Of a stretch of 64,000 nucleotides of DNA, positions 279 to 42,217 are shown piece by piece (the stretch's first letter is position 1; each line of letters starts with the position of its first letter). Location of the stretch: contig NZ_JACJQY010000013.1 of assembly GCF_014696925.1 (NCBI RefSeq), positions 1 to 64,000 on the forward strand, read 5' to 3'. The position numbers were made by a program, and so were the translations under genes. The notes under the pieces are model-generated. The model was not told the DNA's origin, searched no databases, and saw only the letters and a program-made list of their open reading frames with translations. The DNA comes from Phormidium tenue FACHB-1050. GTDB lineage: Bacteria; Cyanobacteriota; Cyanobacteriia; Pseudanabaenales; Pseudanabaenaceae.

Positions 279-498
279 TCTCCTAGAAATCACGACTCAT
301 AGTATTAGCGATCGCCATAATAGATTTGATCGCTATCTAAAGATAAAAGGCAAATGACAACTTAATTTACAACTGGGGCAAAAAAATAGGGTCAGAAAAT
401 TTTTAATCCTGTTAGACTAGACAAGGCGCGAAATTGTCTAGATCAGCAAAATCATACGCCAAACCTAACTCTTGAAAGACTTTCGGATAATTACCACT

Positions 499-2097
499 AT
501 GTTTTGGGCGGATAAATTTGCAGCAGATGCAAGCGGCGATCGCATTATAGTCAACGATTCCAAAACCCCCTCTGGGCGCGTTCATGTCGGCTCATTGCGC
601 GGGGTAGTGATTCACGATGCCATCTATCGCGCCCTCAAACACGCAGGTAAACCCGTCACCTTTACCTACGGCGTTGACGACTATGACGCACTCGACACCG
701 TACCCCATTATTTAGATCAAGCCAAATTTGCACCCTATTTAGGACAGCCCCTCTGCAATGTCCCCTCACCCGAAGCCTCGGCTACCGATTATGCCAAATA
801 CTTCATGGGCGAATTTCTAGAAGTATTCGAGCATTTAGGTGTACGTCCCCAAGTTTATTACCTACGCGACCTCTACCGTTCAGGCAAGATGAATCAATAT
901 ATTGATATCTTCTTGAACAATGCTCACCTCGTCCGCGAAGCCTACAAAGAAGTCAGCAAAGCCGATCGCCCCTCCAATTGGTATCCTTTCCAAACCATTT
1001 GCGAGAACTGCGGCAAAATTGCAACTACCGTTGTCACTGATTACCAAGATGGCAAGGTGTTTTATACCTGTCAGCCTAACGCTATGGAATATGTCAAAGG
1101 CTGCGGTCACACAGGCTGGATATCACCCTTTGATGGCAATGGTAAGTTGCCTTGGAAAGTGGAATGGGTCGCCAAATGGGAAGTCGTCGGCGTATCGATT
1201 GAACTTGCTGGCAAAGACCATTCCCAAAAAGGTGGTTCTCGCGATGTGGCTAACTCCATTTATCGCAAGATTTTCAAAAAGAATCCACCCACCCATGCCC
1301 CCTATGAATTTATTTTGGTAAATGGAACCAAGATGAGTTCCTCTAAGGGTGTTGGCTCCAGTGCTAAGGAAATCGCCGATCTCTTACCACCTGAACTACT
1401 ACGTTTCTTGATGTTGCGGACACAGCCTCGTAGCGTGATTAACTTCTCGCCGAATTACGAGACAATTACCCGTTTATTCCGTGACTATGACACTCTGATT
1501 GATAAATATCAGGCGGATACAGTCAAAGACGAAAAGGCGCTAGAGGATTTAGTTCCCTTAGTCTATTCGCAATTGAATACCGAGGAACAAGTTGCAGGTT
1601 ATCAAGCCTTTGACTTCAGCACCCTGATTTCACTGCTACAAATCCCACACCTCGATCTCGAAGCCGAGATTGTTGCTAGAAGTGCGAATCCACTCAACGA
1701 TCGCGACTGGGAAGTAGTGCGCGATCGCATCCGCGTCGGCAAAAAATGGCTACAAGACTATGCCGATGAAGAAGAGAAACTAGTTCTCTATCTAGACTCG
1801 ATGCCTGAAAAAGCGAAAAACCTCACTGCCGAACAAGTAACTTATCTTGAAGCATTAGCGACTAATCTCGCTGATGATGTTAACTGGGAAGGTGAAGCAT
1901 TACAAACGCTATTATTTAGCACTTCTAGACAAATTGAAGTCTCTCAAAAGAGTGCATTTGCCGCAGTTTATTACACCTTCTTAAATAAGGAGAAGGGACC
2001 AAAAGCTGGAAGCTTACTTTCTTATTTAGAGAAAGATTTTGTGATTCAGCGGATTAAAGAGGCGATCGCGTTAAATCTCACAACTAGTAATTCATAA
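499..2097 (+). CDS. lysK: Class I lysyl-tRNA synthetase
   Basis: Charges tRNA-Lys with lysine in the cytoplasm. The protein is of the class I (Rossmann-fold) type, not the class II LysS usual in bacteria. It has an HVGS version of the HIGH signature at residues 29-32 and KMSSSK at 278-283, both ATP-binding signatures of class I synthetases. A Cys-rich insert (CENCGK and later Cys residues) resembles a zinc-binding knuckle. A TTG 27 bases upstream could extend the frame, but the ATG at 499 gives the usual MFWAD beginning and 532 residues, normal for the family. It is followed by a strong terminator and looks monocistronic. A class I enzyme in a cyanobacterium is notable; whether a class II copy exists elsewhere cannot be seen here. 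Confidence 0.93.
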   Translation: MFWADKFAADASGDRIIVNDSKTPSGRVHVGSLRGVVIHDAIYRALKHAGKPVTFTYGVDDYDALDTVPHYLDQAKFAPYLGQPLCNVPSPEASATDYAKYFMGEFLEVFEHLGVRPQVYYLRDLYRSGKMNQYIDIFLNNAHLVREAYKEVSKADRPSNWYPFQTICENCGKIATTVVTDYQDGKVFYTCQPNAMEYVKGCGHTGWISPFDGNGKLPWKVEWVAKWEVVGVSIELAGKDHSQKGGSRDVANSIYRKIFKKNPPTHAPYEFILVNGTKMSSSKGVGSSAKEIADLLPPELLRFLMLRTQPRSVINFSPNYETITRLFRDYDTLIDKYQADTVKDEKALEDLVPLVYSQLNTEEQVAGYQAFDFSTLISLLQIPHLDLEAEIVARSANPLNDRDWEVVRDRIRVGKKWLQDYADEEEKLVLYLDSMPEKAKNLTAEQVTYLEALATNLADDVNWEGEALQTLLFSTSRQIEVSQKSAFAAVYYTFLNKEKGPKAGSLLSYLEKDFVIQRIKEAIALNLTTSNS

Positions 2098-2237: not shown

Positions 2238-3337
2238 ATGTCTCTGCCTAACTCTGCAAAATTGACCTCAAAGCTACTTACCAAAAAAAGCTTGAGACTT
2301 TCTTCAGCTTTTAGTGCGGCTCTGATAGCGATCGCGGCTAGTCTTGTTTCCTGCACTGTGGCTACTGATGCAAATAAACCCAGTCCTACAGCAACTACTC
2401 AAACCACTACCTCACCAGTTGCCAAAGCCGCAGAGCTACCTCTAGTTGTTGCAACCAACTCCGTAGCCTGTGATTTGGCTAGGCAAATTGCAGGGGAAAC
2501 AATTAATCTCAAATGTTTAATCGAGGCAGGAACCGATCCCCATATTTATCAACCTATCCTGAAGATCGGAAAGCGATCGACTCCGCCAAGTTAGTTATTT
2601 ATGGTGGTTATGACTTTGAGCCAAGCTTGATCAAACTCATCCAAGCAAGTTCCAATCCTGCCCCCAAAATAGCGGTTAATGAAGTTGCAGTGCCTAGCCC
2701 TATCATGACGGCAGATGGTCATAGTCACGGAGATGATCACGATCACGAAAAAGAAGACAAAGCAGGCGAGAAGGAAGCCGATCCTCATGTTTGGAATAAT
2801 GCTCAGAACGGAATTAAGATTGCTCAGTCGATTAGTAAGAGCTTGATTGCACTACGTCCCGATCAAGCGGAAACCTATACCAAAAATACTGCCAAAATTG
2901 TGAGCGAACTAGAACAGATCGATATTTGGATTAAATCTCAAATTGCCACAATTCCTGAAGGTTCACGGAAGTTGATTACTACCCATGATGCTCTGGGTTA
3001 CTATGCTCAAGCCTATGGACTTTCTGTTGAAGGTGCTTTGAATGGGCTTAGTACTGACGAGCAAACAACGCCAACTAGAGTTAAAGAACTAGTGAATGTG
3101 ATCAAATCCAGTCAAGTCCCAACTATTTTTGCGGAAGTGTCGATCAATCCCAAATTGATTACCACCGTTGCTAGGGAAGCAAATGTCAAGGTTTCAGAAC
3201 GGAAACTCTATGCTGATGGACTAGGTGCAAAGGGCAGTGAGGCTGAGACCTATGCAGGCATGTTGATCGCCAATACGCGCACGATTGTCGAAGGTTTAGG
3301 CGGCAAGTACACCCCCTTTCAATTAAAAACACCTTAA
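2238..3337 (+). pseudogene. znuA: Zinc ABC transporter substrate-binding lipoprotein, frameshifted
   Basis: ZnuA captures Zn(II) outside the inner membrane and hands it to ZnuBC. The first frame (2238-2594) carries a signal peptide with lipobox LVSC and the start of the binding domain up to AGTDPHIYQP. The next frame (readable from about 2557 to 3337) resumes with PEDRKAIDSAKLVIYGG and contains the His-rich metal loop (HSHGDDHDHEKE) and the rest of the cluster A-1 family domain. The two parts join if one base is restored near 2556, giving YQP-x-PEDRK. Either the gene is inactivated or the sequence has a one-base error. No znuB or znuC lies beside it. The Zur box upstream supports a zinc role. 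Confidence 0.85.
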
Positions 3338-3362
3338 ACATGGGTTTAACAGCGCTTTGCGC

Positions 3363-3559
3363 TATCAAACCAAAAAGAGAATGGCGGCGCGAAGCGCCGC
3401 CATTCTCTTTTTGCAGCAATTCTCATTATGAAACCGATTTTGGTGTTTCCAGCGCCTTCGGCGCTGGAAACACCAAAATCGGTTTTTGAAAGTCCGCCGT
3501 TGGCGGACTTTCAAAAACCGATTTTTATAATGAGAATAGCTGCTCTTTTTGGTTTGATA
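3363..3559. repeat. Palindrome split by a family C insertion
   Basis: Removing the element at 3414-3542 and one copy of the 9-bp duplication CTCTTTTTG restores a perfect palindrome. Its arms run TATCAAACCAAAAAGAG... and ...CTCTTTTTGGTTTGATA around a GGCGGCGC-GAA-GCGCCGCC core (loop near 3391-3393). It therefore records an older palindrome that was later interrupted. Confidence 0.85.
3414..3542. mobile_element. Family C palindromic MITE (copy C1)
   Basis: The 129-bp element has terminal inverted repeats CAGCAATTCTCATTAT and ATAATGAGAATAGCTG. Two internal hairpins follow each other, one with arms AAACCGATTTTGGTGTTTCC and one with GAAAGTCCGCC. It is bounded by perfect 9-bp direct repeats CTCTTTTTG (3405-3413 and 3543-3551), the sign of transposition. 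It contains no credible gene. It lies between znuA and der. Confidence 0.85.
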
Positions 3560-3620
3560 TTGACGAACTCATTAAATCAAAGCTATAATAGTGAGTTCGG
3601 AATTCCAAAATTGTAAAGCT

Positions 3621-4979
3621 ATGCCCCTCCCGATTGTTGCCGTTGTCGGTCGCCCCAATGTGGGCAAATCCACTCTCGTAAACCGCCTGTCGGGTGAACA
3701 ATACGCGATCGTCTACGATGAACCGGGCGTAACCCGCGATCGCGTCTACCGTGATTGTTTCTGGGGCGCACATGAATTTCAAGTCGTGGACACAGGCGGC
3801 TTAGTATTCGACGATGAGACTGAATTTTTACCAATGATTCGCGAACAGGCGGAAATTGCCATTCGTGAATCGGCGGCGGTGATTTTTGTGGTCGATGGTA
3901 TGGCAGGGATCACCGATGCTGATGAGCAATTGGGCGGCTGGTTACGACGACAAAATATCCCTGTATTACTAGCGGTTAACAAATGTGAAGGTTCTAAATA
4001 TGGACTTTCATTAGCAGCAGAATTTTGGAATTTGGGCTTAGGTGAACCGATCCCGATGTCGGGAATTCATGGTAACGGTACGGGCGAATTGCTAGATGAG
4101 TTAATTAAGCATTTACCAGCACCCGAAGAAGTAGTTAAAGAAAGCGACGAAATCAAAGTAGCGATTATCGGTCGTCCGAATGTAGGTAAATCCAACTTAT
4201 TGAATGCTTTCATCGGTGAAAATCGTAGTATTGTGAGTCCGATTTCTGGCACAACTCGTGATGCGATCGATATGTCCGTGGAGCGCGATGGCAAAAAGTA
4301 TCGCCTGATCGATACTGCGGGTGTGCGTCGTAAAAAGAATATTGATTACGGCATTGAATTTTTTAGCATTAACCGTGCATTTAAGGCGATCGGACGTTCC
4401 GATGTCGTTTTACTAGTAATTGATGCCCTCGATGGTGTTACCGATCAAGATCAAAAATTGGCAGGTCGGATCAATGATGAGGGGAAAGCTTGCGTAATTG
4501 TGGTGAATAAATGGGATGCGATCGAAAAAGATTCCTACACAATTTACGATTACACTGCCGAAGTTAAGAGTCGTCTGATGTTTGTGGAATATGCGCCGAT
4601 TATTTTTGTGAGTGCGCTTACAGGTCAGCGCGTCACCCAAATTCTCGATCGCATCGACATCGCCGCCGAGCAACACAAACGTCGCGTCCCTACCGCCATC
4701 TTAAATGAAGCGCTTAACGAAGCAGTCACATGGCACGCGCCCCCAACCAGTCGCGGCGGTAAACAGGGTAAAGTCTATTACTGCACCCAGATTTCCGATA
4801 GTCCACCAACGATCATCCTATTTGTTAACGATCCCCATCGTTTCAATGACAACTACAAGCGTTACATTGAAAATCAATTCCGTAAAACCCTCGGTTTTGA
4901 AGGCACACCTCTACGATTTATCTGGCGCGGCAAAAAAGATCGCGAAGTCGAAAAGTCAAAAAACTCAGCATTAAGGTAA
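3621..4979 (+). CDS. der: Ribosome biogenesis GTPase Der (EngA)
   Basis: Der is an essential tandem GTPase acting in 50S ribosomal subunit assembly. Two P-loops of the form GRPNVGKS are visible, near residues 10 and 181, each with its DTAG/DTGG and NKC/NKWD motifs. A C-terminal KH-like domain ends in a Lys-rich tail. The length of 452 residues is typical. A GTG at 3591 could extend the frame by ten codons, but the ATG at 3621 gives the standard [17 protein letters not shown] start. A terminator follows at once. Confidence 0.97.
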
Positions 4980-41972: not shown

Positions 41973-42217
41973 CAACAATTCTCATTATATAGCTGTCGCC
42001 AAGTGTATAAAGACATAAAACCCAAGAAGAGAATGGCGGCGCTTCGCGCCGCCATTCTCTTCTTGGGTTTAGCTTTTGCCCTAACACAATCGACGGCAGC
42101 TATAAAAGTTGTTTTTTCAATCCAGCCGTTGGCTGGATTAAAAAAACAACAGCTTTGGAGTTTCTAGCGCCGAAGGCGCTAGAAACTCCAAAGCTGTTTT
42201 CACAATGAGGATTGCTG
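41973..42217. mobile_element. Family C element (copy C2) carrying an inserted family A element
   Basis: Left end CAACAATTCTCATTAT and right end CACAATGAGGATTGCTG match the family C termini. Inside are the two usual hairpins, with arms GTTGTTTTTTCAATCCAGCC / GGCTGGATTAAAAAAACAAC and AGCTTTGGAGTTTCTAGCGCC / its complement. A complete family A element (41989-42104) lies between the left end and the first hairpin. Flanks AAAAAGCTC and AAAAAATCC are only partly alike (6 of 9), suggesting age. Confidence 0.75.
41989..42104. repeat. Family A palindromic element (copy A8), nested in C2
   Basis: Ends ATAGCTGTCGCC and GGCAGCTAT. Core hairpin 42017-42070, arms AAAACCCAAGAAGAGAATGG around GCGGCGC-TTC-GCGCCGC. 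Confidence 0.8.

Follow-up and report, generated by a model that had tools for sequence, protein, structure and literature searches.

A MITE inserted into the arm of a palindrome upstream of der in Phormidium tenue FACHB-1050 and an insertion sequence with the same ends

Gene content and structure of the der locus

The window, that is, the whole stretch of 64,000 nucleotides analyzed here (positions 1–64,000), is contig C5 in the 5.6-Mb draft genome of Phormidium tenue FACHB-1050, hereafter the host. Between a ZnuA-type metal-binding gene and der, which encodes GTPase EngA, the window carries a 129-bp MITE flanked by 9-bp direct repeats and placed in the arm of an older palindrome. The features are as follows (a dot denotes a feature to which no strand is assigned).

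2238–3337, plus strand: ZnuA-type metal-binding gene, split over two frames (profile match)
3363–3413, dot: older palindrome, left arm, loop, and right arm as far as the insertion point
3405–3413, plus strand: target duplication copy 1, 9 bp, CTCTTTTTG
3414–3542, plus strand: MITE, 129 bp, with two internal hairpins (direct reading of the window)
3414–3429, plus strand: left terminal inverted repeat, CAGCAATTCTCATTAT, as at both ends of a 1418-bp insertion sequence
3431–3485, dot: internal hairpin H1, 26-bp perfect stem, 3-nt loop TTC
3475–3525, dot: internal hairpin H2, 24-bp perfect stem, 3-nt loop GTT
3527–3542, minus strand: right terminal inverted repeat, ATAATGAGAATAGCTG on the plus and CAGCTATTCTCATTAT on the minus strand
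3543–3551, plus strand: target duplication copy 2, 9 bp, CTCTTTTTG
3552–3559, dot: outermost part of the right arm of the palindrome, separated from the rest by the MITE
3560–3589, plus strand: promoter-like site before der, TTGACG-18-TATAAT (11 of 12 positions)
3621–4979, plus strand: der (GTPase EngA; TIGR03594)

The bounds of the element and its 9-bp direct repeat had been given in a preliminary description of this DNA, and direct reading of the stretch found the coordinates to be right. The two terminal ends, CAGCAATTCTCATTAT and ATAATGAGAATAGCTG, are complementary at 15 of 16 positions, and the segment 3475–3485 is an arm shared by H1 and H2. At 131 bp, the commonest family length exceeds the window copy by 2 bp because each H2 arm of the latter lacks one base of the same run found in the 131-bp consensus; this paired loss is in itself a matched change of the two arms. 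When folded as single-stranded DNA, the 129-bp element is far more stable than its shuffled counterparts (z of −18.4, and −16.0 for the other strand).

The outer arms of the older palindrome (3363–3379 and 3543–3559, 17 nt each) are 100% complementary and stand 163 nt apart. Joining the flanks with one copy of CTCTTTTTG gives a palindrome with a 28-bp stem, a 3-nt loop, and no mismatch, so that the restoration of a perfect palindrome upon removal of the element and one repeat, as first described, was reproduced and the insertion observation at 3363–3559 is confirmed. A 20-bp hairpin persists today on the left side (3371–3413), since duplication copy 1 restores the right arm over this length, and no more than the outer 8 bp were separated.

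The right end of the MITE is 17 bp from the promoter-like site of der. Terminator-like matches number 11 in the interval 3300–3700 as against 0.7 in shuffles, several of them being registers of the same hairpins, and an influence of the MITE on der or on read-through is possible from this arrangement. In the ZnuA-type gene (2238–3337), profile positions 1–37 lie in one frame and 39–263 in the other, and the relative G005 shows a one-base difference at the frame split; the split gene is either a pseudogene or a sequencing error. Window positions 472–2097 encode a lysine-tRNA ligase which, in this cyanobacterium, matches TIGR00467 (lysS_arch).

Members of the family in the host genome and in relatives

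The end pattern (position 5 free, at most one mismatch) matched the host genome 118 times, as against a single match for the reversed control pattern. A first element screen of the host scored 40 of 134 candidates. Fifty host elements could be paired, listed as 52 rows of which two are alternative pairings (L001 1484–1629 and L199 465–609); 36 of the 52 rows are 131 bp in length, and short forms of 45, 47, and 102 bp are included. A 9-bp duplication with zero or one mismatch flanks 34 of the 50 (21 exact, 13 with one mismatch), an agreement reached by only ~1.3% of shuffled pairings of the same flanks, while the flanks of the other 16 differ at two or more positions. Together with the equal duplication length of the full-length insertion sequence described below, this bears out the 9-bp target duplication claimed for the window copy. 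Base counts gave no strong sequence motif in the 9-bp duplications of the host elements.

A 45-bp form free of hairpins and bounded by an exact duplication occurs in the host (L074 1476–1520), and similar 45-bp forms flanked by direct repeats are found in G002 (e.g., L149 2140–2184). A different element, 141 bp long, was observed at L146 594–734; it shares the 16-bp ends, has a 9-bp repeat, and is apparently a second MITE type of the same insertion sequence.

Matches to the element DNA, some of them weak, were obtained in 24 of the 26 genus genomes searched, host included. In the relative G005, 22 loci were read, one of which (L329) held no element; 9-bp duplications flank 14 of the 21 family elements, and 19 of the 21 entered the pair counts given below. 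A search of a plasmid collection returned zero matches to the MITE DNA. Our literature search within open-licence PMC found no account of MITEs in Pseudanabaena, and we make no claim that the family is unpublished. The family shows the characters of a MITE: its terminal inverted repeats are shared with a full-length element, its members are short and lack a transposase gene, the target duplication is as long as that of the parent, and the copies are many and polymorphic for insertion.

A full-length insertion sequence with the same ends

A full-length insertion sequence with CAGCAATTCTCATTAT ends, which the preliminary description had proposed to look for, was found in G002. It is 1418 bp long, carries CAGCAATTCTCATTAT at both ends, is flanked by the duplication GAGATTTAT, and has an open frame of 435 amino acids encoding a DDE-like transposase. 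The 16-bp ends of the MITE are identical to its ends. Similarity between the two extends to these ends and a few further bases, and the MITE hairpins have no counterpart at the insertion sequence ends that were read. Fifteen full-length copies were recovered from 18 loci read in G002, G008, and G025; 11 of the 15 have an exact 9-bp duplication and four have none that is exact. One copy (L139) interrupts a group II intron protein in G002, and the flanks minus one duplication copy form a single frame of at least 482 residues.

Matches to the transposase were obtained in 12 of the 26 genomes, among them G025 with 23 (10 spanning residues 2–435) and G008 with a single one over the whole length; Pseudanabaena biceps O153 carries a transposase that is 100% identical. 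The host draft genome (89 contigs) gave zero matches, a draft from which a collapsed repeated insertion sequence could escape, and the MITE family looks stranded in the host on this account.

The protein WP_013335080.1 from Gloeothece verrucosa PCC 7822 is annotated as ISNCY, and the partner transposase is 46.4% identical to it over 98% of its length. Profile searches matched Pfam DDE_Tnp_1 and DDE_Tnp_1_assoc, both below cut-off, and returned no NCBIfam match at E values up to 0.1, which is informative on ISNCY only if NCBIfam models it. Residues D127, D216, D217, E336, and E338 are invariant in 11 homologous sequences, making D127, D216/D217, and E336/E338 candidates for the DDE residues. 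In Arthrospira, Laspinema, and Leptolyngbya, 15 loci have CAGCAATTCTCATT(A/T)T-type ends together with exact repeats of 9 or 10 bp. If P. biceps is counted, such ends and repeats are present at 16 of the 45 loci scanned (14 with 9 bp and two with 10 bp); the scan demanded an exact direct repeat, and the 29 loci without a result are no evidence of absence. By sequence comparison, the ends of the MITE are those of an ISNCY-like insertion sequence: the partner transposase is akin to those of ISNCY-annotated cyanobacterial insertion sequences, from which the window feature differs in being a gene-less derivative.

Other candidate partners were considered and rejected. ISAs1 gave no match at E values up to 0.1 in NCBIfam, which we take to contain an ISAs1 model. 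The IS1595 copy at C42 (L078) ends beside AATGAGAATTGCTG, and other fetched copies of it end differently. A fragment at C42, which we take to be of the IS256 type, was dismissed as the copies fetched from relatives are without CAGCAATTCTCATTAT ends. Among the IS1595- and IS256-type copies fetched from relatives, no such ends were found, the exception being a MITE piece that adjoins the C42 copy. An 861-bp interval between two such ends at L058 has MITE hairpin pieces at both ends, shows no duplication and no transposase recognized by eye, and was rejected as an insertion sequence.

The region L078 1–2911 is a cluster of transposase pieces of several types (IS1595 by Pfam, and IS256) around probable relics of partner insertion sequence ends. 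The cluster also has transposases of the IS5 and IS4 types, with Pfam DUF4096 and DDE_Tnp_1. Host contig C42 probably keeps an end relic of the partner insertion sequence, since the left end of L078 resembles the 1418-bp element; this apparent end is broken up by other insertion sequences.

Empty and occupied orthologous sites

The empty site that had been proposed to exist in sister genomes was found at the der locus of G005, which is 97% identical over the der query. There, no MITE is present: the ZnuA-type gene is followed by a palindrome and this by the promoter region of der. The G005 palindrome has a different arm sequence and one stem mismatch, and a short stretch immediately to its left aligns poorly; on these three grounds it may have been replaced rather than modified.

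For further sites, 15 of the 21 elements with exact duplications were used, and the joined flanks were searched in six relatives. At least 10 of the 15 joined sites match across the junction in at least one of the six (L007, L063, L065, L077, L189, L191, L197, L198, L202, and L208). None among the matches listed for the six relatives concerns L002, L008, or L196, and the flank of L003 is itself a repeat. Occupied sites were seen in G005 at L197, L198, and L215, that at L198 being occupied in G010 too; the L197 insert in G005 is longer, and only its start resembles the MITE. With copies at unrelated sites and orthologous empty sites, the earlier statement that the element moves as a unit stands.

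Palindromes as insertion targets

The preliminary description had also held that the palindromes existed before the element arrived, a claim that holds at der, the order of events being specific to the locus. At der, G005 has a MITE-free palindrome at the orthologous place, though of different arm sequence, and judged from this comparison the palindrome came first. The nesting is reversed at 41973–42217, where a GGCGGCGC palindrome with TATAGCTGTCGCC-type ends lies inside a family MITE. L074 (9298–9603) and L064 (from 794) resemble this reverse nesting. The GGCGGCGC palindromic element at 41973–42217 was apparently inserted at TA and looks like another mobile family.

Perfect palindromes with a stem of at least 10 are abundant in the window, with 48 distinct cases in positions 1–64,000; the loop measures exactly 3 nt in 25 of these. 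Shuffling the letters of the window three times gave 0, 3, and 2 matches. With 48 palindromes available, landing in one is not a rare event. In relatives that lack the MITE, a palindrome or near-palindrome is present at the targets of L189, L191, L198, L202, and L208.

It is conceivable, though we think it unlikely, that the MITE prefers palindromes and that the nesting is aimed rather than accidental. Of 34 insertion sites, 13 fall within inverted repeats whose stem is at least 10, compared with 20% of intergenic controls (p ~0.01; the control value was 23% at first and 20% with MITE copies masked). However, p is ~0.05 at a stem of at least 12, the p value assumes independent sites, the controls all come from one palindrome-rich 64-kb window, and 18 of the 34 sites lie in no inverted repeat with a stem of 8 or more. 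The excess of palindrome targets is thus mild and suggestive only.

Covariation of hairpin arms

Arm changes were counted in those host copies that measure exactly 131 bp, 36 of the 47 of 128–132 bp; the 129-bp window copy is outside this set. Counted as departures from the commonest pair, H1 has 40 matched and 18 broken changes, H2 is intermediate with 16 matched and 41 broken, and the terminal repeats have 0 matched and 67 broken. When right arms were shuffled among copies, the means were 4 matched and 89 broken for H1, and 2 and 68 for H2. Two-sided changes, with G-U accepted, affect 14 of 26 pairs in H1, six of 14 in the unshared part of H2, and one of 16 in the terminal repeats, two-sided totals attained by none of 500 shuffles; the copies are related, so the cells are not independent events. 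The 19 copies of G005 show the same order with weaker coupling (matched/broken: H1 19/17, H2 7/19, terminal repeats 2/25). Close hairpin arms thus tend to vary together, whereas the distant terminal repeats of the same elements do not.

Such coupling might also arise if natural selection acting on RNA hairpins, as two-way intergenic terminators, rather than DNA copying, kept the arms matched. The position of the element between two genes and the excess of terminator-like matches at 3300–3700 speak for this, the latter with the reservation made above about registers. The outer stem formed by the terminal repeats, however, is not kept, and selection on pairing would not predict the exact inversion of loops with unchanged arms seen in the target of L198 and in L191 (below). 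We consider selection on RNA a rather improbable cause.

Inversion of loops between related genomes

The H1 loop occurs in two main orientations, TTC in 18 and GAA in 13 of the 36 host copies (others in five), and TTC in 11 and GAA in seven of the 20 G005 copies with an H1 stem (others in two). The same inversion is seen at orthologous positions. The insertion shared at L198 has GAA as its H1 loop in G000 and G010 and has TTC in G005; the loop of the L198 target palindrome is TTC in G000 and GAA in G005 and G010. At L197, TTC in G000 corresponds to GAA in G005 as the H1 loop, and the arms show a matched change as well. The loop of the L191 palindrome, whose inner arms are unchanged, reads TTT in G000 and G010, as against AAA in G005. 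At the der site, G020 and G012 share arms and have the loops TTC and GAA. At L215, the loops (AAA and TTC) are not exact inversions of each other, and one pair is broken in the G005 copy. Caution is needed as assembly from short reads can place a loop of 3 nt wrongly within a perfect stem; an assembly error of that kind does not explain the two-sided arm changes.

Recombination between MITE copies could swap whole hairpins, so that the loop travels with its two arms. Each genome has dozens of similar copies that would provide the material, and the arm variant of the G005 copy at the L198 locus is found in other copies as well (L064 and L077). Two target palindromes nevertheless flip their loops though their arms form no other palindrome in G000, G005, and G010: the arms of the L198 target and of L191 are unique to that palindrome in these genomes, except for one lone arm with one mismatch in G010, so that a donor palindrome elsewhere is unlikely. 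Hairpin swapping is, in our judgment, doubtful as the general cause, though it may have acted on the MITE's own hairpins.

Discussion

The matching ends, the duplication, the many copies, the empty sites, and the relatives' full-length insertion sequence with the same ends and duplication length are read directly from the genomes compared. The feature is a MITE, and very probably it was mobilized by a cyanobacterial insertion sequence of 1.4 kb that shares its 16-bp ends, the transposase of which inserted it with a 9-bp stagger into the arm of an existing palindrome upstream of der. In this process, the transposase would recognize the 16-bp ends and insertion would take place at a 9-bp staggered cut, the repair of which would give the 9-bp duplication; at der, the target would have been the arm of a pre-existing palindrome upstream of the gene. 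To judge from sequence patterns, template switching during replication may keep the arms of short-loop hairpins matching and flip their loops. We infer that the partner transposase moved the window MITE, with cut-and-paste chemistry, and that the short-loop hairpins, both the MITE's own and those of the target palindromes, are maintained by template switching. A chance arrangement of repeat and palindrome with no insertion deserves practically no credence, being refuted by the empty site, the 118 end matches, the duplications, the other copies, and the full-length insertion sequence.

Bacterial MITEs such as Nezha and Correia are short and gene-less, have terminal inverted repeats, and occur in many copies. 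By these general features only, the window family, a short gene-less multicopy element with terminal inverted repeats, is set beside them. Nezha in cyanobacteria and Correia in Neisseria are presented as bacterial MITEs in the review PMC10969869. The window family differs from both by its own ends, its own partner insertion sequence, and two internal hairpins with a shared arm. It also resembles REPINs in being short mobile palindromic DNA. REPINs depend on RAYT enzymes and are not known to make a target duplication; a 9-bp duplication and a DDE-like insertion sequence are found here.

The marks of template switching described in PMC8604942 are homogenized arms and inverted spacers, and PMC8794818 argues likewise for the stems of RNA genes. 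The Pseudanabaena hairpins share both marks with the cases in the two papers, which concern yeast genes and RNA genes, whereas ours are cyanobacterial intergenic hairpins with distant terminal repeats as an internal control. Within open-licence PMC, we found no literature on spacer inversion in bacterial genomes.

We lean, with some caution, toward the view that intergenic palindromes in Pseudanabaena are self-correcting. Template switching at the fork would copy arm onto arm and flip the loop, visibly so between close species, and many unrelated palindromes and MITE hairpins would stay perfect without selection; the terminal repeats, ~100 bp apart, would escape and serve as a built-in control. 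As the arm coupling and the loop flips fit template switching in replication, perfection does not date a palindrome. Because close arms tend to stay alike, perfect pairing is only a weak guide to the age or function of a palindrome.

What goes beyond the routine description of an element is the chain of evidence from empty site and duplication to partner insertion sequence and apparent absence of the latter from the host, together with the contrast between close and distant arms. A MITE family is tied to an insertion sequence by matching ends, duplications, and before-and-after sites. Neither perfection in a palindrome nor paired changes in a stem need signal youth or a selected RNA structure, and orthologous pairs of MITEs and palindromes in Pseudanabaena offer a natural gauge of template switching in bacteria.
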